Of a DNA stretch of 58,270 nt, positions 3,866-37,620 are shown one piece after another. The notes beneath the pieces were generated by a model that was not told the origin of the DNA, did not search any database, and saw only the letters and a list, made by a program, of their open reading frames with translations. Source of the stretch: Zetaproteobacteria bacterium. Lineage in GTDB: Bacteria; Pseudomonadota; Zetaproteobacteria; Mariprofundales; Mariprofundaceae. The stretch spans positions 1-58,270 of the forward strand of contig RFFT01000012.1 in the NCBI GenBank assembly GCA_003696795.1, given 5' to 3'. Within the stretch, counting starts at the first letter, position 1. Every line of letters begins with the position of its first letter. The translations under genes and the position numbers were made by a program.

Positions 3866-3936
3866 TGACTGTTGGAGGAAGCCTTGCCCATCCCACGCTT
3901 CACCTCTGTGATCCCGAACACACTACGGACAAGGAA

Positions 3937-5118
3937 TCACAGGCGACCGAGCCTGGGTAATGGCCCCACCAGCGGACGGAGATACTCCAGCCAACCGGCT
4001 GTCACATCATTGCCCGCGTCGGCGATCCATTCGTCGCGCATCGACCTCGTCTTCCGCGCGACACTGGACAAGGGTGTGATAAAGTACTCGCTCGCATACG
4101 GCGTATTGCCAAGACGTCGAATAGCCACCGACCCGGGCACACCCTGGGCAACGGCATGCTGTACGGCAAACGCGCCAACCTCGCGCGCCTCTCGCGCATC
4201 GACCTCGGATACGATGGTCGGGAAACTGCGTTGCAGATAGCCGAAGGTATCCGCACGCACCCGAACTTTACCGCCGGCAAAAGATTCCTTGATATGCCGG
4301 GCAAGAAAATCACCCAGCGCACCGGTACCCGACAATTGAACATTGCCATGGGAGTCCCGCTCCCCGGTAGTCAGAATCGGCTGTCCATCGGCATCGGCCA
4401 CGCCCTCGGACACCGCCACCACACAGCGCCCCAATTCCTCATAGACACGCCGCACATCGGCGACAAAGCGCGACATCTCGAACGCGCGCTCCGGCAGGTA
4501 GATGAGATGCGGACCATCGCCAGACTGTTGACGGGCCAGCGCGGATGCGGCGGTCAAAAAACCCGCATGCCGTCCCATCACGACATTGATCTTGATCCCC
4601 GGGAGCGCGGCATTGTCTCGATCGTCACCCATAAACGCCAATGCCACAAAGCGCGCGGCTGAGGCAAATCCCGGGCAGTGATCCGTGACTCGTAAATCGT
4701 TGTCGATGGTCTTCGGAATATGCACGGTGCAGAAGTCATAATCGGCCTCGCTCGCCATCTGCGCGATAATGTGCGCGGTCTCCGCCGAATCGTTGCCACC
4801 GATATAGAAGAAATAGCGCACATCATGCTTGCGAAACACCTCGAACACGCTCGCGCACTCTTCCCGGCCAGGCTTTAGACGCACCGATCCCAACGCCGCA
4901 GCCGGGGTTGCGGCCACCCGCTCAAGCGTTGCGCTGTCATGCGCGCTCAAGTCCACGAAATCCTCACGCATAATGCCGGCGATGCCATGTCTTGCTCCCA
5001 GAACCCCCGTGATCGCCCGCTGTTCCCGCGCCGCCAGCACCGCGCCGACCAGGGACTGATTGATCACCACGGTTGGCCCTCCCGACTGGCCAATGACCAT
5101 CTTGCCGCTGAATGCCAT
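3937..5118 (-). CDS. pfp: Pyrophosphate-dependent 6-phosphofructokinase
   Basis: A 393-residue phosphofructokinase that interconverts fructose 6-phosphate and fructose 1,6-bisphosphate. Two residues that separate PPi-using from ATP-using enzymes are seen directly: GGND at 107-110 (Asp110 in place of the ATP-enzyme glycine) and PKTIDND at 135-141 (Lys136 in place of glycine). The N-terminal GQSGGPTVVINQSL and later MGRHAGFL and GYLQRS segments are family hallmarks. The ribosome site AAGGAGG precedes the ATG. It is divergent from the sugar-phosphate operon. The PPi-linked enzyme is reversible, and in some autotrophs and methanotrophs it is reported also to act on sedoheptulose phosphates. That role here is inference. 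Confidence 0.93.
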   Translation of the reverse strand: MAFSGKMVIGQSGGPTVVINQSLVGAVLAAREQRAITGVLGARHGIAGIMREDFVDLSAHDSATLERVAATPAAALGSVRLKPGREECASVFEVFRKHDVRYFFYIGGNDSAETAHIIAQMASEADYDFCTVHIPKTIDNDLRVTDHCPGFASAARFVALAFMGDDRDNAALPGIKINVVMGRHAGFLTAASALARQQSGDGPHLIYLPERAFEMSRFVADVRRVYEELGRCVVAVSEGVADADGQPILTTGERDSHGNVQLSGTGALGDFLARHIKESFAGGKVRVRADTFGYLQRSFPTIVSEVDAREAREVGAFAVQHAVAQGVPGSVAIRRLGNTPYASEYFITPLSSVARKTRSMRDEWIADAGNDVTAGWLEYLRPLVGPLPRLGRL

Positions 5119-5218
5119 CGCAACCTCCTTACTCTCTAATCGCGCTCATGGTATCCCAAAGCCAAGCGTCTGTCTTCCTTGCTTTCATGGAAAGGCGTAT
5201 CCCATTAGGCTCGCTGCC

Positions 5219-6019
5219 ATGGACCATGACCGAACCATCATCGGAATCTTGCGATCGGCGGGCCAACAGATCATCCGCCCCGCCCTCGCCAGCCACACGC
5301 AAGGCGGAATCAAAGGCGATGGCTCGGTGGTCACCGAGGCCGACCTGGCCTGCCAGCAATATGTGGCGCAAGCTCTCGCCGCATTGACCCCCGACATCGC
5401 TTTTCTGGGCGAGGAGATGAGTCTCCGCGCGCAGACCGGATGCATCGCCAAGGGAGGGCGGTATTGGTGCCTCGATCCGCTGGATGGAACGAGCAATTTT
5501 GTCGCGGGCTTCCCGATGTGCGCCATTTCCCTCGCCTTGATTGAGGATGGGTATCCCGTTGCCGCTTACATTCACGACCCAATCCGTGATGAGACATTCA
5601 CCGCCAGACGCGGCCAGGGTGCGCGCTGCAATGATGAACATTTGCGCTGCGCCCCACCCGTCCCGCCTTCGGAGGCAATCGGATTCATCGACTTCAAGCG
5701 TCTCTCTCCCGTCGTGGCCGGTATCTTGCTGGAACAGGGACATTATCGCAGCCAGCGCAATCTCGGCTCCTGCGCGCTGGAGTGGGCCTGGCTGGCGGCA
5801 GGCAGGGCGCATTTCATCATTCATGGCGGCGAGAAGTTGTGGGACTTTGCCGCCGGCGCCCTGCTCGCCCAGGAAAGTGGCTGCGTAAGTGGTGATTTCG
5901 ATGCCCGCTCCCTTTTCCCCTACCAAGACATTTCCTCATCGATATTGGCGTGTTGCACGCCTGCATTGCAGCAATATTTCAGCGCCCTGCTCAACCGCGG
6001 CCCGCAGTCGTCCAACTGA
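5219..6019 (+). CDS. Inositol monophosphatase/CysQ-family phosphatase
   Basis: A 266-residue member of the lithium-sensitive sugar/inositol phosphatase family. Metal-binding motifs are present: GEE at 64-66, DPLDGTSNF at 86-94 and WDFAAGALLAQESG near the C-terminus. Substrate could be inositol phosphate, 3'-phosphoadenosine 5'-phosphate (CysQ) or a sugar bisphosphate, and the sequence does not decide. It is the first plus-strand gene before the FBPase-transketolase operon. In Acidithiobacillus a suhB-like gene holds the same place, which hints at a Calvin-cycle role. The ATG at 5219 begins the conserved part. Upstream in-frame codons overlap the PFK gene on the other strand and lack homology. 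Confidence 0.85.
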   Translation: MDHDRTIIGILRSAGQQIIRPALASHTQGGIKGDGSVVTEADLACQQYVAQALAALTPDIAFLGEEMSLRAQTGCIAKGGRYWCLDPLDGTSNFVAGFPMCAISLALIEDGYPVAAYIHDPIRDETFTARRGQGARCNDEHLRCAPPVPPSEAIGFIDFKRLSPVVAGILLEQGHYRSQRNLGSCALEWAWLAAGRAHFIIHGGEKLWDFAAGALLAQESGCVSGDFDARSLFPYQDISSSILACCTPALQQYFSALLNRGPQSSN

Positions 6020-6030
6020 CCCTGCGGACG

Positions 6031-6049
6031 GGTAAGGTGCAACCTTGCC
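6031..6049 (+). other. Small hairpin after the inositol-phosphatase-like gene
   Basis: GGTAAGGT and ACCTTGCC can pair over 8 positions (one U-G wobble) around a 3-base loop, 11 bases after the stop codon. The following bases (TTGTCTCT) are only weakly T-rich, so this is at most a weak terminator or a spacer hairpin before the FBPase gene. The rest of 6020-6164 shows no other clear signal apart from the FBPase ribosome site GGAGGGG. Confidence 0.3.
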
Positions 6050-6164
6050 TTGTCTCTACAACCCATCGATATTTCAGAAGGAATAGCGAAAGGCGCATGG
6101 CGCTCGATTTTTGCGCATGATTTGGCTAGCATGCTGCCGCAAAATTCACGGAGGGGTGCGAATC

Positions 6165-21388: not shown

Positions 21389-23546
21389 CATCTTCCAAAC
21401 GCTTGAGCAACTCATCCAGCCTGCGGACATCATCCTTGTCGTTCTGCGACCCGGCCTCACTGTCAAAACTCAGCGCTTGTTCATTGTGTTCCACCAGTCC
21501 CGAACCGCCAGCGGGTGACTGTTCCATGGCCTTGTCCAAATCGAAATCGGAAATATCGAACTCCAGTTCGTCCGGGCCCGAGGCGCTGGCCTCGGCAACT
21601 GGCGCTTGCGCACGCAATTCCTCATCCCCGCTTGGCGCGGGTTCATCATGCGCGATATCCTCGTTCCCTTGCGCGGGATGCGCATCACCTTCCATGGCAG
21701 ACTCGGCGCGCGCGGGCGTATCCGGTGTTTCGGTCGCATCCGACAGAAAATCATCGAGCCCCATCGTTGCCAGCTCCTGACGAAAACGCGCATGCTCTGC
21801 TTCGTCCAGCGCGGCCAACGCATCGGCGACATGCCGGCGCATCGTCTCCGGATCGGCATGGAAGCTGAGCACCAGCAATTTCTTCAAATGCGCATCCAAG
21901 CGTTTGGGCTCACGTGCAAGCACACTTTCCACGGTTTTGAGCGCCTCATCCTCCATTCCATAGCGCAAATAGACATCGACATCGCTCAACGGATCGACAG
22001 CGGGCGCCTGCGGTCGCTCGGGCGATGTCGGGCGCACTCGTTCACCGGACTCACGACTTGCCTCCTCGCGCTCGTCGCGCTGGGCAACGGTCGGTGCAGA
22101 GACGCCCGCCGCTTCCGTTGCGGACATCCGCTCGGTAGCAGGTTTCTCAACGGGATCCGCCGGTGCGGCGGGCGCTGTAGCAACTGCCGGCTGTACTGTG
22201 CCGCTGCGGCGCGTGCGCATGATCCAAAGCAAGAGCAACAGTAGCAGAATGCCCATCCCGCCCAGAGCCATCAGCAACCATTGCTGACGTGCTTCCGCCT
22301 GACGCTTTTCCTCCATCACCAAAGCCAACTGCGCCTGCAGACGTTTAAGTTGATGCTCCAGCCGATCCATGCGCCGCCTCGTCTCCGCACTCATGCTCGG
22401 CTCAAGCGTAGGCTGCCTGGGTGCCGCCAAAGGTGCCGGGGGTACCGATGTTGTCTCTGCCTCGGCGGACTGGGCTGGCTTCGGAGCAGGCATTGGCGGT
22501 GCTGCTTCCCTCGGTTGAGGCGCGGCGGTGGACGCAGTGGGTTGCTGCTGCTCCCGCGCCTCGGCCTTGATCGGCGCCTCTGCCTGCGCGGTCACCGCCG
22601 GCTTACCAGCCGGTTGCGCAACCGCCGCCTGAGCGGATCGTTCGCCGCTTGACCCCAGCGCCTTGCCACCCATCCGGATACGCGGCTTGTAGCGTTGTTC
22701 CTGCGCGCGTTTCTCGGCCGCATAACGCGGCTGCTTCACCAACGCGCGCCAGCGCCGCTGATGATCTTCGAAAATGAGACTTGCCTCCCTTGGCGTATGC
22801 CGCTCCACCTCGGCTGCGGTCGGAACGCGTAACATGCTGCCCTGTTTGAGCAAATTGAAATTGTGGGCCGCAAACTTGTCTTTGTTCTTTTCGTACAGTG
22901 CCACCATTACCTGCGCCAGCGTATAGCGATTGTCGATCCGCAACCGCTGTGCCACGGTGGACAGCATATCCCCATGTACGATTGGCCCATAAACCGAGGC
23001 GCGCGCCCACCCGTCAAAGGGATGAAACGATGCGCTCTGGTTGGCTGACTCGCGTTGCTTGCTCGCATCGACAAGCTGTACGGGCGACACTTCCGGCCCT
23101 GCCTTGCGCACCGGCGCGGGCGTGTCCGTACCTTTGCCACGCAGGACCACTTTGGGCAGATCAAGCAGCACAGGGAATTTCTTGAATTGGGTAAAATGCC
23201 CCTCGCGCACACGCAGAATCAGATTGAAAAAGGGCGTATTCAGCGCCGCATTGCTGCGCACCTGCACGCGCAGCCCCTGCCGATCGCGAACCAGGGAGAC
23301 CTGCAACCGATCAAGCACCGGATCGCGATACGTCTCCAGCACGCGGTAATCGGCACGCGAGGCAATATCCACCTCGATTTTTGCTGCCTTCTCGTCGGCG
23401 GACAATTGCAGCGGAATACGCGCAAAAAACGGCTCGCCCAAATGGCTGGCAACCTCGATGCCACCGAGGGACACGGCGTATGCCGGAATCACAGCGGCAC
23501 ACCACACAGCAATGACCATCAGTCCGCGCATCAAAAGCTGCCGCAT
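21369..23546 (-). CDS. fimV: FimV/HubP-family polar hub protein
   Basis: A 725-residue protein. A signal peptide ends near AYA (about residue 24). The periplasmic FimV N-terminal domain (SLGGIEVASHLGEPFFARIPLQL) comes next. A LysM-like region (YGPIVHGDMLSTVAQRLRI...LRVPT) follows at about 187-245. A Pro/Ala/Glu-rich linker and coiled coil lead to one transmembrane segment near residue 425. An acidic cytoplasmic part carries the FimV C-terminal TPR-like motif (DVDVYLRYGMEDEALKTVESVL). Homologues organise cell poles and type IV pilus or twitching functions. The neighbours asd and truA match the usual gammaproteobacterial order. Confidence 0.92.
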   Translation of the reverse strand: MRQLLMRGLMVIAVWCAAVIPAYAVSLGGIEVASHLGEPFFARIPLQLSADEKAAKIEVDIASRADYRVLETYRDPVLDRLQVSLVRDRQGLRVQVRSNAALNTPFFNLILRVREGHFTQFKKFPVLLDLPKVVLRGKGTDTPAPVRKAGPEVSPVQLVDASKQRESANQSASFHPFDGWARASVYGPIVHGDMLSTVAQRLRIDNRYTLAQVMVALYEKNKDKFAAHNFNLLKQGSMLRVPTAAEVERHTPREASLIFEDHQRRWRALVKQPRYAAEKRAQEQRYKPRIRMGGKALGSSGERSAQAAVAQPAGKPAVTAQAEAPIKAEAREQQQPTASTAAPQPREAAPPMPAPKPAQSAEAETTSVPPAPLAAPRQPTLEPSMSAETRRRMDRLEHQLKRLQAQLALVMEEKRQAEARQQWLLMALGGMGILLLLLLLWIMRTRRSGTVQPAVATAPAAPADPVEKPATERMSATEAAGVSAPTVAQRDEREEASRESGERVRPTSPERPQAPAVDPLSDVDVYLRYGMEDEALKTVESVLAREPKRLDAHLKKLLVLSFHADPETMRRHVADALAALDEAEHARFRQELATMGLDDFLSDATETPDTPARAESAMEGDAHPAQGNEDIAHDEPAPSGDEELRAQAPVAEASASGPDELEFDISDFDLDKAMEQSPAGGSGLVEHNEQALSFDSEAGSQNDKDDVRRLDELLKRLEDDDDPKR

Positions 23547-29473: not shown

Positions 29474-30780
29474 CCGGATGGCAAACCCAAGCCGAACGCG
29501 AAGCGGCCATCAGCGTTCATCCCGAAATCATACGCCAGGGCAAAAGCCCGCTGACCTGGGATGCACGCGCCCAGGAGTTCGACCGCCTCGTGGAGGCGAC
29601 GGCCTGCCGACTCGTCCACTCCTGGCGCGTCCCCTTGCGTCAACTGCAGCCCGGTACCCTGCTGGGTAGCGGTCAGGTTGCTCAACTGAAACAACTTGTG
29701 CAAGCGCATGCGGCGGGTGTGGTGTTCGTCGATCATCCCCTGTCCCCGGTCCAACAGCGCAATCTTGAGAAGGGGCTCAACGCCAAAGTTGTCGATCGCA
29801 CCGGCTTGATTCTCGAAATTTTCGCAGCCCGCGCGCGCACACGGGAGGGGGTATTGCAGGTCGAGCTGGCCAGTCTGAACTATCAACTGGGCCGCTTGGT
29901 GCGAAGTTGGACCCACCTTGAACGCCAACGTGGCGGATTTGGTTTTCTCGGCGGGCCCGGTGAACGTCAGATCGAACTGGATCGACGTATGATTCGTACC
30001 CGCATCCGCGCGCTGGAACGCGAATTGGCCAAAGTCCGGCGCATGCGAGCGACCCAGCGTGGCGGCAGAAAACGCAAGTCGATTCCCACCGTCGCGCTGG
30101 TCGGCTATACCAACGCCGGCAAATCGACCCTGTTCAATCGCCTTTCCCAAGCCAAGGTATACGCGGCCGACAAACTGTTTGCCACGCTGGATCCCACCCT
30201 GCGCATCCTAAATCTCGCGCCCGGCCAGCGGGTAATGTTGGCGGACACGGTCGGTTTCGTGCAGGAATTACCCCATGAACTCATCGAGGCCTTCAAGGCC
30301 ACATTGGAAGAAGTCACCGAAGCCGACCTGATCCTGCACGTCCAGGATGCCGCCGATCCGATGCGGCACGAACAAGCACAAGTGGTGCGCCAAACCCTGC
30401 AACAACTTGGCCTGGTCGGCGACAGCGCGCCCCCGATCATCGACGTCTTGAACAAGATCGATCAAGTACCCGACATGCAACCGCCCCAGGGTCGCTGGGC
30501 GCGCCCTAATCGCATCGCGATTTCCGCACGCACAGGCCAGGGCATTGATGTCTTGAAAGCGCGCCTACGCAAATGGCTGGACAGCCGGATGCGGGAGGCC
30601 AGGCTCATCTTGGCGCCTTCCGACGGGCGCACCCTCGCCTTTTGCCATGCGCGTGGCGTAGTACTGGCCAGTTCCGTCGACGAAAACGGTATGATCCATC
30701 TCCATGTGCGCATGCGCCCCGCTGATCTGGGCAGAATCAGACGCAACCACCAGGGCCGCGATGAACTGATGGGCTCATAA
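29470..30780 (+). CDS. hflX: GTPase HflX (ribosome-associated)
   Basis: A 436-residue GTPase that splits stalled ribosomes under stress. The N-terminal HflX domain (GSGQVAQLKQL, VVFVDHPLSPVQQRNLEKGL, VDRTGLILEIFAARARTREG) leads through GGPGERQIELDRR to the G domain. P-loop GYTNAGKST is at 212-220, followed by DPTLR, DTVGF (G3) and NKID (G4). The ATG at 29470 overlaps the miaA stop; the frame is open further upstream inside miaA but without homology. The following terminator-like hairpin belongs to the opposite strand. Confidence 0.96.
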   Translation: MTGWQTQAEREAAISVHPEIIRQGKSPLTWDARAQEFDRLVEATACRLVHSWRVPLRQLQPGTLLGSGQVAQLKQLVQAHAAGVVFVDHPLSPVQQRNLEKGLNAKVVDRTGLILEIFAARARTREGVLQVELASLNYQLGRLVRSWTHLERQRGGFGFLGGPGERQIELDRRMIRTRIRALERELAKVRRMRATQRGGRKRKSIPTVALVGYTNAGKSTLFNRLSQAKVYAADKLFATLDPTLRILNLAPGQRVMLADTVGFVQELPHELIEAFKATLEEVTEADLILHVQDAADPMRHEQAQVVRQTLQQLGLVGDSAPPIIDVLNKIDQVPDMQPPQGRWARPNRIAISARTGQGIDVLKARLRKWLDSRMREARLILAPSDGRTLAFCHARGVVLASSVDENGMIHLHVRMRPADLGRIRRNHQGRDELMGS

Positions 30781-30781
30781 C

Positions 30782-30814
30782 AAAAAAGCGGGCGCGCCCT
30801 CGGACACGCCCGCT
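30782..30814 (-). terminator. Rho-independent terminator after amtB
   Basis: On the minus strand AGCGGGCG and CGCCCGCT form an 8-base stem around a 12-base loop, directly followed by TTTTTTG. It ends the TorF-glnK-amtB transcript and also separates it from convergent hflX. Confidence 0.88.
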
Positions 30815-30834: not shown

Positions 30835-32043
30835 TCAGTGCGCCACATCCTCCTCCGGATAGGCGCTGACGTGATGTAGGGACAGATCCGCACCCTGATA
30901 CTCCTGCTCTTCATCCAACCGCAATCCGATCACGGCCTTGATCGCGCCATACACCACGAACCCGCCAACCACCGCGATTGCAAACCCGGTCATCGTTCCC
31001 ACCAACTGGGCCATGAAAGTGACGCCACCCGCGCCACCGAGCGAGGTCGATCCAAAAATACCGGCTGCGACGCCGCCCCAGATCCCCGCGCCGCCGTGCA
31101 AGGGTACCACACCCAGCACATCATCAATGCGCATGCGATTTTGGATCAACTGAAATCCGAACACAAAGCCGGCACCGGCGACCGCGCCGATCACGATGGC
31201 CCCGATGGGGTGAACAATATCGGAACCCGCACAGATAGCGACCAATCCGGCCAACGCGCCATTGTGCACGAAGCCCGGATCGTTCTTGCCTGCGACCAGC
31301 GCCGCAATCAGGCCACCTACCATGGCCAGCAACGAATTCATCGCCACCAGACCGGAAGCGGCATCGGCCGTGCCGGCGCTCATCACATTGAAGCCAAACC
31401 AGCCGACGCAGAGGATCCATGACCCCAAAGCCAAATAGGGAATATTGGAAGGAAGAATCGCATGCACGCGACCATCCGCCGAATACCGTCCCTTGCGCGC
31501 GCCCAGCAGAACCACCGCACCCAGTGCGAGGAAACCGCCCATGCCATGCACGACGACGGAGCCCGCGAAATCGTGGAAGCTGGCGCCGAATGTTTTTTCC
31601 ATCCACTGCTGATAGCCGAAATTGCCGCCCCAAATCAGACCCTCATAGAACGGATAGACCAATCCCACCAAAATGGTGGTCGCCAGCGCGTTGGGCCAAA
31701 AGCGAACGCGCTCGGTGATTCCCCCTGAAATGATGGCCGGAATCGCTGCCGCAAAGGTCAACAGAAAGAAGAAGTGCACCATCTCATAGCCATTGCTCTT
31801 CTCCCCGATGACCGACAACTCGGACACCGGCGCAAAAAACGAAATGCCATAGGCGACCGAAAATCCGACGAAAAAATACGCCAGCGTGGAGAAGCCGAAA
31901 TCACTGATCACGCGCACCAGCGCATTGACCTGATTCTTCTTGCGCACCGTGCCCGCCTCGAGAAAGGCGAAGCCGGCATGCATGGCCAACACCATGGCCG
32001 CGCCCATGGTGAGAAAAAATACGTCAAATCCCGCAGTATTCAT
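30835..32043 (-). CDS. amtB: Ammonium transporter AmtB
   Basis: A 402-residue trimeric channel with about 11 transmembrane segments. Conserved parts: FLTMGAAMVLAMHAGFAFLEAGTVRKKN, FAGSVVVHGMGG (first pore histidine), GWFGFNVMSAG and PLHGGAGIWGG (second pore histidine). No cleavable signal peptide is evident. It lies 32 bases downstream of the PII gene, the usual glnK-amtB pair, and is expected to be blocked by unmodified PII when nitrogen is plentiful. Confidence 0.96.
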   Translation of the reverse strand: MNTAGFDVFFLTMGAAMVLAMHAGFAFLEAGTVRKKNQVNALVRVISDFGFSTLAYFFVGFSVAYGISFFAPVSELSVIGEKSNGYEMVHFFFLLTFAAAIPAIISGGITERVRFWPNALATTILVGLVYPFYEGLIWGGNFGYQQWMEKTFGASFHDFAGSVVVHGMGGFLALGAVVLLGARKGRYSADGRVHAILPSNIPYLALGSWILCVGWFGFNVMSAGTADAASGLVAMNSLLAMVGGLIAALVAGKNDPGFVHNGALAGLVAICAGSDIVHPIGAIVIGAVAGAGFVFGFQLIQNRMRIDDVLGVVPLHGGAGIWGGVAAGIFGSTSLGGAGGVTFMAQLVGTMTGFAIAVVGGFVVYGAIKAVIGLRLDEEQEYQGADLSLHHVSAYPEEDVAH

Positions 32044-32075: not shown

Positions 32076-32444
<369 letters not shown>

Positions 32445-33185
32445 TCAATAGGCGAAATTCACGCCTGCAACCACCTGGTTCGCATTCTTCGGCCGCGGCC
32501 CGCTGCCCAGCCCATCGTTCTGCCAGGCCGGAATGGACACCATCAGCGAAGGCGTCATCGTCACCGCATCGCCCAAGGCCACATCCTTGCTGATCGACAG
32601 GTCCACATGCCCGAGCCCCTTCTTGGTGGTCGGAAACTCATTGACCGAAGTCGCAGTCGCTGCCTTGCCGAAATAGAAACCAAAGTCCGCGCCCAGGTCG
32701 AAACCGCCGACATTGTGCGCCAGCGCCACATCCAGATAGGCGCTCTTCTTCCAGCCCTTTGCATTGGAATTCGTGGCATAGTAATAGGTCGCCGAAATCG
32801 GACCGTAGCCCAGGCCGGCATAGACCTCACCGGTATTGCCGGCGGCATTGTTCAGATACGAATAGTAGATATAACCGACCGAGATGCTCACACCGCTCAG
32901 CTCGGTGGAATAGTCCACAGTCCAGTCGAACTCGGTCACATTGCCGCCGGTGACATTGTTGCCCAGTGGCGCGGCAAACCAGACATTCGCCGACAAGCCC
33001 TCAGCAATGTCGAGGCCGAGATCACCCTGCACCGAGGCTGTCGGGCTCTGCTGCATACCTCGCCACATATACTGGCTGTACACCCCTATATCGCCGGCAA
33101 CGCCCTCTGCCTGCGCGGGCAGCATAGCAGCCAATCCGAACAGGCCCGCAAACATCGTGGTAAGCCATGCCTTCTTGATACACAT
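32445..33185 (-). CDS. TorF-family putative outer-membrane porin
   Basis: A 246-residue protein with a signal peptide ending AQA (about residue 26) and alternating aromatic beta strands ending in Tyr. The start of the mature part (GVAGDIGVYSQYMWRGMQQS) and the final VVAGVNFAY match the TorF/Gcw_chp putative porin family (TIGR02001). The ATG at 33185 follows GGAGCGA; upstream in-frame codons overlap the promoter. It is the first gene of the nitrogen operon, so it may help ammonium or another nitrogen source cross the outer membrane. That function is inference. Confidence 0.85.
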   Translation of the reverse strand: MCIKKAWLTTMFAGLFGLAAMLPAQAEGVAGDIGVYSQYMWRGMQQSPTASVQGDLGLDIAEGLSANVWFAAPLGNNVTGGNVTEFDWTVDYSTELSGVSISVGYIYYSYLNNAAGNTGEVYAGLGYGPISATYYYATNSNAKGWKKSAYLDVALAHNVGGFDLGADFGFYFGKAATATSVNEFPTTKKGLGHVDLSISKDVALGDAVTMTPSLMVSIPAWQNDGLGSGPRPKNANQVVAGVNFAY

Positions 33186-33241
33186 TCTTGTTCGCTCCTT
33201 TATAGCTTTTGACACCGCAACCGCGGCCGCCCATCTATCAA

Positions 33242-33256
33242 GCAAGGACTGTGCCA
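33242..33256 (-). promoter_or_regulatory. Sigma-54 promoter for the TorF-glnK-amtB operon
   Basis: Read on the minus strand the sequence is TGGCACAGTCCTTGC, an exact match to the -24/-12 consensus TGGCAC-N5-TTGC. The -12 element ends 57 bases before the TorF start codon, leaving a leader of about 45 bases. This predicts RpoN- and activator (NtrC)-dependent expression on nitrogen limitation. I did not find a clear NtrC box in 33257-33413, so the activator site is unassigned. Confidence 0.88.
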
Positions 33257-33413
33257 AACGAGAAAAAGCGGCGCATACAGTATTCCCGTTTCGTCGTCCA
33301 ACCCATGCGCGCCCATCTGATAGACATAACTGCTCATAATTTAGGCACACTCAACTCACGCTACCGCTAGCGCATCGGAGCGACTACAATCGCGGCACTG
33401 TCTGGAGGCATAG

Positions 33414-35174
<1,761 letters not shown>

Positions 35175-36493: not shown

Positions 36494-37609
36494 CTAGAAA
36501 TGGCGTGACATCGACACGGCAATGGTTTGTCGGCGATCCCGATAGGTTCCCGCAAACGCGCCGGTCACCACCCGTTTGGGATAAAAGGTATAGCTATAGG
36601 CCGCGTCGAGATGCAACCCAAACGCGTCACCGCCAAACCCGATGGACACCCGATGCCCATCCTGATCCGCGATCATCGGATTCATGCCTTGGGCGCGCTG
36701 CGCGCCCTGCTCGAACGCATAGCCTAAACGCGCCTCGGTACCTTCCCGCCAAGTCCATACCAGCCCGCTGGCAAAGGACACCGTGTCGCGCATGGCCAGT
36801 GGATTGGCTGCCACAACCGCGCCCGCGCTGGAACGCAAGTTCATATCGCGCATGCGTGACCAGCGCGCCCATGTCACATCGCCCTCGATCCGCCAGCGGT
36901 CGGCCACCTGCCATGCCAGCCCGGCCTGAACGCGGTCGGGCAAACGCACCTTCAACGACCGGCCCGCATTGCTTAGGTTGATCGAGCTGCCACTGCGCGC
37001 CATCACTCCCAGCGACCAGCCCGGCAAAAATTTCCACATCAGTGAAGCATGGGCTCCAAAGCTGGCATAGTCGCGCGCCTGAAAGATCGTCGCCCCACGC
37101 TGTAGATTGATATCACTCAAATACCAATCCAGGCCCATGCTCATCGCCAAGGAACTGTTCCAGGCATAGACCGCATCGGCGGCCACATCATCCACGCGCA
37201 ACGTGGTCACCCCGTTGGCGACCCCGAACACACTGCCCCAATCGTTTTGCAGGTAGTACATCGGGGTATACGCAAAGGTGAAGCCGATGTTGCCGTCCAG
37301 CGGCATCCACCCGGCATGCACATAAACCTGATTCGGCTCCAAGCCCAGATTGGGCGCCACCCCGCCCGCAAGACGGACCGACGAATTGCGATAATCCACA
37401 AGATAACCCAACTGGGCATCCCAACCCACCTGCCAGGCCTTGCCCGAGGGATTGTACATCGCCGCGGAAACATCATCCGCCGTGGCGACAAAGGCATTGC
37501 CGCGCCCGGTGGCCGACGCGGAAAGCTCTGTCTGCATAAAGCCATTGGCGATCGCCGACGATGCCGTCAGCGGAAAGACGCAAAGCAGGAACAAAACTCG
37601 TTTCAACAT
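36494..37609 (-). CDS. FadL/TodX-family outer-membrane transport protein
   Basis: A 371-residue protein with a signal peptide. The mature N-terminal plug segment NGFMQTELSASATGRGNAFVATADDVSAAMYNPSG is typical of FadL channels for hydrophobic compounds. The C-terminus ends in FYPKRVVTGAF...SMSRHF, the aromatic end of the last beta strand. Substrate may be fatty acids or other hydrophobics. The start could be one codon upstream (37612). It is inserted between lolA and rarA with short gaps (11 and 5 bases), so it is probably co-transcribed. Confidence 0.9.
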   Translation of the reverse strand: MLKRVLFLLCVFPLTASSAIANGFMQTELSASATGRGNAFVATADDVSAAMYNPSGKAWQVGWDAQLGYLVDYRNSSVRLAGGVAPNLGLEPNQVYVHAGWMPLDGNIGFTFAYTPMYYLQNDWGSVFGVANGVTTLRVDDVAADAVYAWNSSLAMSMGLDWYLSDINLQRGATIFQARDYASFGAHASLMWKFLPGWSLGVMARSGSSINLSNAGRSLKVRLPDRVQAGLAWQVADRWRIEGDVTWARWSRMRDMNLRSSAGAVVAANPLAMRDTVSFASGLVWTWREGTEARLGYAFEQGAQRAQGMNPMIADQDGHRVSIGFGGDAFGLHLDAAYSYTFYPKRVVTGAFAGTYRDRRQTIAVSMSRHF

Positions 37610-37620
37610 CATGGATACTC

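Follow-up and report, generated by a model that had tools for sequence, protein, structure and literature searches.

A porin gene at the head of a glnK-amtB operon with a conserved sigma-54 site in a zetaproteobacterium, and the recurrence of its family beside Amt and Kdp genes

What is an outer-membrane porin gene doing at the head of a glnK-amtB operon, and is it tied to nitrogen limitation? The question is raised by a 58,270-nt stretch of DNA from a member of the Mariprofundaceae (Zetaproteobacteria; contig RFFT01000012.1, assembly GCA_003696795.1), hereafter the window. Here the porin gene, glnK and amtB lie in one direction with intergenic gaps of 27 nt (porin–glnK) and 32 nt (glnK–amtB), the gene order and spacing of the nlmA-glnK-amtB operon type, and a G+C-rich hairpin with a T run starts 20 nt past the amtB stop (Table 1). 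An earlier note on this DNA, made from the sequence alone, had described three genes with short gaps running to a terminator, and both the gaps and the strength of the hairpin agree with that description. The listed open reading frame of the porin has a GTG start and extends to 33350; we preferred the ATG at 33185, since a signal-peptide-like stretch begins there and the GTG frame would overrun the promoter. Counted from this ATG, the sigma-54 site is 56 bases away, so that the close spacing given in the note stands and its figure of 57 does not. No sigma-70-type site was found between positions 30600 and 33500. A FadL/TodX-type outer-membrane protein (PF03349, 69.2 bits) is encoded a few kb away on the minus strand (36494-37612).

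Table 1. Features of the porin-glnK-amtB locus (positions in the window)
Feature	Position	Strand	Description
Porin gene	32445..33185	-	246 aa; PF09694 Gcw_chp; signal-peptide-like start (by eye); C-terminal Tyr
glnK	32076..32417	-	PII protein, T-loop Tyr51; PF00543; aligned to E. coli PII
amt gene 'type B' (amtB)	30835..32043	-	402 aa; PF00909; transport residues kept
Sigma-54 promoter TGGCAC-N5-TTGC	33242..33256	-	Exact match; conserved 5' of glnK-linked porins
Ribosome-binding site AAGGAG, porin gene	33195..33200	-	From sequence; 9 nt 5' of ATG
Intrinsic terminator	30787..30814	-	12 pairs, 9 G-C, then TTTTTGTTAT
Weak dyad copy GCMTAA-N3-TTAKGC	33332..33346	-	Possible activator site, 75 nt upstream of sigma-54 site; 3 mismatches

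The products of the operon were assigned by profile searches. GlnK matched PF00543 with 113.9 bits and its Tyr51 aligns with that of E. coli PII, identifying it as a PII protein; the genome has two PII genes. The Amt protein matched PF00909 with 291.5 bits and retains the twin His, the Trp and the Asp of the transport path, which places it in the Amt/Rh family; against the NCBI subfamily TIGR00836 it fell below the cut-off (307.2 vs 343.3). The porin matched PF09694 (Gcw_chp), listed by Pfam as a family of unknown function, with 45.7 bits against a gathering cut-off of 24, and is the one PF09694 gene in a genome that is 97.5% complete. Its score against TIGR02001 (TorF family putative porin), 36.9 bits, lies below the curated cut-off of 47.15 bits, whose own closest porin relatives reach higher scores; TIGR02001 matches all 31 class members of one porin alignment at E <= 0.001 (best 3.3e-19). 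The label 'TorF-type' given in the earlier note is thus right as to PF09694 membership and overstated as to the TorF name. Shewanella oneidensis torF, the name giver of TIGR02001, is annotated as the porin of the TMAO reductase system (PMC5955497); the window porin matches the same profile, but below its cut-off, and has no TMAO genes beside it.

We then surveyed the linkage of the family to glnK and amt. Of 398 genomes sampled in the phylum, 215 carry a PF09694 match. The window's class, with 78 genomes of a single order, accounts for 45 of these (45/78 with a match at E <= 0.001). Each of its 55 matches was inspected, and glnK follows immediately in 51. Outside the class glnK follows immediately in 25 of the 110 porins examined among the matches listed, and among the remaining 85 an amt gene immediately precedes the porin in six. 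The 110 consist of 30 loci and 80 porins chosen from the listed matches, strong ones first, with most matches of family f21 skipped. A second copy in one class genome (G048) does not adjoin glnK and lies upstream of an ABC-transporter permease gene. On plasmid pTB101 of Aquabacterium olei (3905-6158), a gene annotated as a TorF family porin directly precedes an ammonium transporter gene without glnK. Aminomethyltransferase, purU, DUF3445 and sigma-54-regulator genes surround it, a set that looks suited to methylated-amine use.

Upstream of the window porin, TGGCACAGTCCTTGC on the minus strand matches the sigma-54 consensus exactly, with the GG and GC of the -24/-12 element at the right spacing. 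The motif by itself is weak evidence: other matches occur in both the window (14 in all with <=1 mismatch, 7.6 expected) and the 1.55-Mb genome (7 exact matches, counted by hand, among 64 looser ones); a second exact match in the window (22940-22954) was ruled out as a promoter, being inside a FimV-like frame. The real evidence is conservation. Within 330 nt before the porin match, a site with <=1 mismatch was found for 22 of 50 glnK-linked porins of the class and 18 of 25 elsewhere in the phylum, as against 9 of 84 unlinked porins (18/25 vs 9/84 outside the class, Fisher p 6.6e-9), and base-shuffled upstream regions reached this level in 0.2% (class) and 1% (linked elsewhere) of cases. Allowing <=2 mismatches, the counts were 43/50, 21/25 and 33/84, with the site 100-234 nt before the match in 39 of the 43 class loci and 19 of the 21 elsewhere; the remaining six are closer (4-61 nt) and doubtful. 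Seven class loci lack the site: a head unit (L190), five units in second position within tandem arrays, and one copy of such a second unit at a contig edge. One class locus (L171) and one unlinked phylum locus were excluded for their short upstream regions, and the shuffles here and in the tests of activator sites below were simple base shuffles. The exact sigma-54 promoter at the head of the operon, as claimed in the note, is therefore conserved in linked relatives. The nine unlinked porins with a sigma-54-like site (<=1 mismatch) are L065, L227, L232, L233, L244, L254, L255, L256 and L266, the first of which precedes an aminotransferase gene.

The genome encodes one RpoN and four strong sigma-54 activators. 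One activator, NtrC, barely clears the curated cut-off (558.7 vs 558.6 bits); the gene before it encodes a kinase that resembles NtrB and AtoS, below both cut-offs. Another activator is nearest to NtrX, below the NtrX cut-off. The classical NtrC box has the consensus TGCACY-N5-GGTGCA. Its best match in the window has 4 mismatches and the box is missing in most of the class too; boxes with <=2 mismatches were found in loci outside the class only, where they are common. A dyad, GCMTAA-N3-TTAKGC, occurs upstream of the promoter with <=3 mismatches in 39 of 40 class loci (shuffles 18%) and with <=2 mismatches in 18 of 40 (shuffles 2%), figures that come from a motif derived from the very sequences it was scored on. 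In 29 of the 40 loci it lies 51-53, 72-77 or 92-97 nt upstream, a spacing of about two helical turns. The class may use another activator sequence, possibly this dyad, in place of the classical NtrC box. We also tried the dyad as a regulon marker, by exact search of four relatives, and found it in three: one copy belongs to the porin operon (G022), and in the other two cases it sits between genes that converge, away from any sigma-54 match with <=2 mismatches, so that outside the porin operon the dyad may be a mere repeat.

The operon type is already known from Herbaspirillum. In H. seropedicae, nlmA(orf1)-glnK-amtB is induced by nitrogen limitation and dependent on NtrC, an amtB::lacZ fusion was 21 times more active under nitrogen limitation, and NlmA turned up in membrane extracts; the paper gives its function as unknown and its location as most probably periplasmic (PMC3023670). 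In literature searches, none of which paired the family with kdp, only that paper tied such a gene to glnK-amtB. A primer from the paper matched 92 stretches. Ten of them encode glnK at the match, and each of these ten has a Herbaspirillum title; H. seropedicae was absent among the titles listed for the primer matches. In the nine Herbaspirillum loci with a whole head gene, this gene encodes 259-265 aa, ends 12 nt before glnK and has TGGCACGGCTCCTGC 60-65 nt upstream. Three head genes scanned against PF09694 scored 160.7-164 bits and two scanned against TIGR02001 scored 164.3 and 166.4 bits; since these close relatives are strong members, NlmA can be placed in the PF09694/TorF porin family. 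The window operon thus shares with that of Herbaspirillum the gene order, the Pfam family of the head gene and a sigma-54-type site, which in Herbaspirillum reads TGGCAC-N5-(C)TGC and is 60-65 nt before the start. However, the window porin is only 27-30% identical, belongs to a separate clade and scores below the TorF cut-off, the window Amt is of another type, and no NtrC box was found in the window. The glnK-amtB pair is also found in E. coli, where it is under nitrogen control by sigma-54 and NtrC; unlike the window operon, it has, to our knowledge, no porin gene at its head. The link to nitrogen limitation made in the earlier note is well founded, given the conserved sigma-54 site, RpoN, NtrC and a published operon of the same gene order that is induced by nitrogen limitation and NtrC-dependent; in view of that precedent it is not new in kind.

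A quick tree of 168 porins, with a midpoint root, separates the glnK-linked porins of the class, as a deep branch, from the Herbaspirillum-type porins, and the label 'linked' requires 10 changes, 8 of them forced. The window porin, standing in this separate deep clade, cannot be called an NlmA orthologue; by position, it would resemble NlmA in role. No plasmid-borne close relatives of the window porin were found. Structure prediction of the window porin from a shallow alignment gave a mean pLDDT of 31.8. For a Herbaspirillum NlmA, two of five models reached a pLDDT of about 64; the one at 64.8 has 12 long strands, the number that a table row in PMC4827864 also gives for the family containing Gcw_chp. 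The nearest solved folds to the NlmA model were KdgM (Z 16.4), a COG4313 channel and NanC (Z 15.1), with autotransporter barrels scoring a little lower; for the window porin itself no convincing solved homologue was found by sequence (best E 0.56) and none by profile. KdgM/NanC-type porins are 12-strand monomers that take acidic sugars. They share only 7-8% identity with the NlmA model, and the conserved strand residues in the window family are, in contrast, mainly acidic.

Conservation reaches 90-100% for seven residues, Y39, R42, Q53, W69, E85, D87 and E120, whether or not the porin is linked, and D55 (100%) and D91 (96%) are added in the linked porins of the class, where other members mostly have Gly. 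With strands assigned to the window porin, their limits taken partly from the poor model, the more polar strand faces are those that carry E85-D87-D91, Q53-D55, R42 and E120. This suggests a lumen that would be mainly acidic; the lumen side of these residues and the cation selectivity of the pore are both inferred. The acidic cluster is family-wide and therefore does not single out ammonium. Mean net charge was -12.9 for linked class porins, -4.8 for those linked elsewhere and -16.9 for unlinked porins (window porin -8); it is no guide, as the groups are not separated in the expected direction.

A second recurrent neighbourhood emerged among the unlinked porins. KdpA is encoded within 6 kb of 13 of 149 PF09694 matches outside the class (13 genomes, among the matches listed), and OmpW, the sole control family, searched in the same genome sample, was near KdpA in none of 150 among the matches listed, within 6 or 20 kb (Fisher p 9e-5, among the matches listed). 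The count used the best-listed matches, and one KdpA match on an already represented contig was left out. Scanning 20 downstream neighbours of unlinked porins retrieved two KdpC, one KdpD, one P-type ATPase, one Na+/H+ exchanger with TrkA_N and one further Na+/H+ exchanger, with six of the 20 matching no family at 1e-10. By similarity, partial genes included, Kdp-type genes are present at nine unlinked-porin loci. Among nine kdp-linked porins whose loci were examined, none has a sigma-54 site with <=2 mismatches; they occur in scattered parts of the tree (7 changes required, at least 5 of them forced), two in the clade of Herbaspirillum NlmA. Other neighbours of family porins include glutamine-synthetase-like, aminotransferase, cytosine/purine-permease, choline dehydrogenase and agmatinase genes.

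The Kdp neighbourhood points to small monovalent cations beyond ammonium as candidate substrates. NH4+ and K+ are almost equal in radius, and what the Amt and Kdp neighbourhoods would have in common is a small monovalent cation. A 12-strand barrel, as modelled for the relative, and the invariant acidic residues would fit a channel for NH4+ and K+, and passage of ammonium through the window porin is plausible. We tentatively propose, as a possibility that we hold to be more doubtful than the nitrogen operon itself, that Gcw_chp/'TorF' proteins are small-monovalent-cation channels placed repeatedly beside high-affinity scavenging systems (Amt/GlnK for NH4+ under sigma-54, Kdp for K+ without sigma-54). 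The R/E/D/E cluster would act as a filter, with D55 and D91 added in the class, and the outer membrane would be a regulated selective step. This family-wide idea is the part that goes beyond the known operon layout. Ammonium and potassium uptake have mostly been studied at the inner membrane; if so widespread a family does go with Amt and Kdp, control over the scavenging of these ions may extend to the outer membrane, and a Pfam family of unknown function gains a testable substrate.

For the window itself, we lean, by no more than a little, towards an nlmA-glnK-amtB-type, sigma-54-dependent nitrogen-limitation operon whose porin favours small monovalent cations and raises ammonium influx. When nitrogen is limiting, RNA polymerase-sigma54 would be activated at the promoter by an enhancer-binding protein, for which NtrC is the likeliest candidate, and a single mRNA for porin, GlnK and Amt would run to the terminator. 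The porin, presumably a 12-strand outer-membrane barrel like its modelled relative, would favour small monovalent cations through its acidic inner face and so raise ammonium influx into the periplasm. Amt would then carry ammonium over the inner membrane. A GlnK block of Amt is established for these protein families, and GlnK would probably shut the window Amt once ammonium returns.

The porin could instead serve nitrogen scavenging in general, letting in organic nitrogen such as amino acids or small amines, and be co-expressed with GlnK and Amt simply because all are needed together. The nitrogen-related genes that adjoin some family members, from glutamine-synthetase-like to agmatinase genes, and the TMAO annotation of Shewanella torF (PMC5955497) fit such a role, which we nevertheless think unlikely, as no other neighbour was found nearly as often as glnK and amt, and Kdp, which comes second among those that recur, is unrelated to organic nitrogen. 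Less probable still is a general diffusion channel that raises overall permeability under nitrogen limitation and does not itself discriminate between solutes: small barrels of this type may lack specificity, and the window porin model, at pLDDT 31.8, yields no pore to judge by, but recurrence beside both Amt and Kdp would be surprising for such a pore, and OmpW does not recur beside Kdp. That the sigma-54 site is a chance match, as the seven exact matches in the genome (one in a coding region) might invite, or that the porin is transcribed apart from glnK-amtB, is very improbable, because both the site and its distance from the porin are kept through the class and the phylum and the kdp-linked relatives lack the site (0/9).

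Ks-Amt5 is a non-transporting sensor with a seven-residue intramembrane ion site that includes E31 and D50 (PMC5764959). In the window Amt two of the seven are identical (E29 and D48, corresponding to E31 and D50), so that the ion site as a whole is not present, and the protein consists of the Amt domain only, without the fused output domain of a sensor Amt. Its best solved matches were 8qj3/8qpf (644-661 aa, 'Ammonium transporter'), followed by Ks-Amt5 (6eu6) and E. coli AmtB. Since it has no output domain, transport is the likelier function; we also considered a pure sensor, which is disfavoured because this is the sole Amt found in the 97.5%-complete genome and its transport residues are kept.

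Many class operons carry two Amt types in series, type B having D48/E29 like Ks-Amt5. In a comparison of frames >380 aa, in which the window protein was counted twice, E29 and D48 were present in all 27 type B rows with the transport residues kept, and among the 36 type A rows Glu was found at position 29 in 25 and the Asp in none; as those 25 share the Glu, only D48 is peculiar to type B. We compared the operon layouts of 46 class loci and the window, many of them cut by contig ends. Both Amt types occur in 26 of the 46, in the order porin-glnK1-amtA-(porin2)-glnK2-amtB, some with no second glnK in view, and the window operon, porin-glnK-amtB only, keeps the glnK2-amtB part of the glnK1-amtA-glnK2-amtB array. 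Its glnK groups with the glnK2 of two same-genus genomes that have one (support 98/84). One or other of the same-genus genomes G039 and G038 is closest for amtB (88%), argB (86%) and the gene at 33414-33926 (75%), and the window porin is 69% identical to the porin of another genus and 39-41% to those of G039/G038. The simplest reading would be a loss of glnK1-amtA together with an exchange of the porin under the same promoter.

Divergent to the porin gene lie, on the plus strand, a gene for a 170-aa membrane-protein-like product (33414-33926) with no convincing Pfam or NCBIfam match and, next to it, argB (33923-34813). Among the 47 layouts (window included) the 170-aa gene was found in 18 frames and argB in 16. 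ArgB is a PII target in cyanobacteria, and its conserved neighbourhood here may therefore matter.
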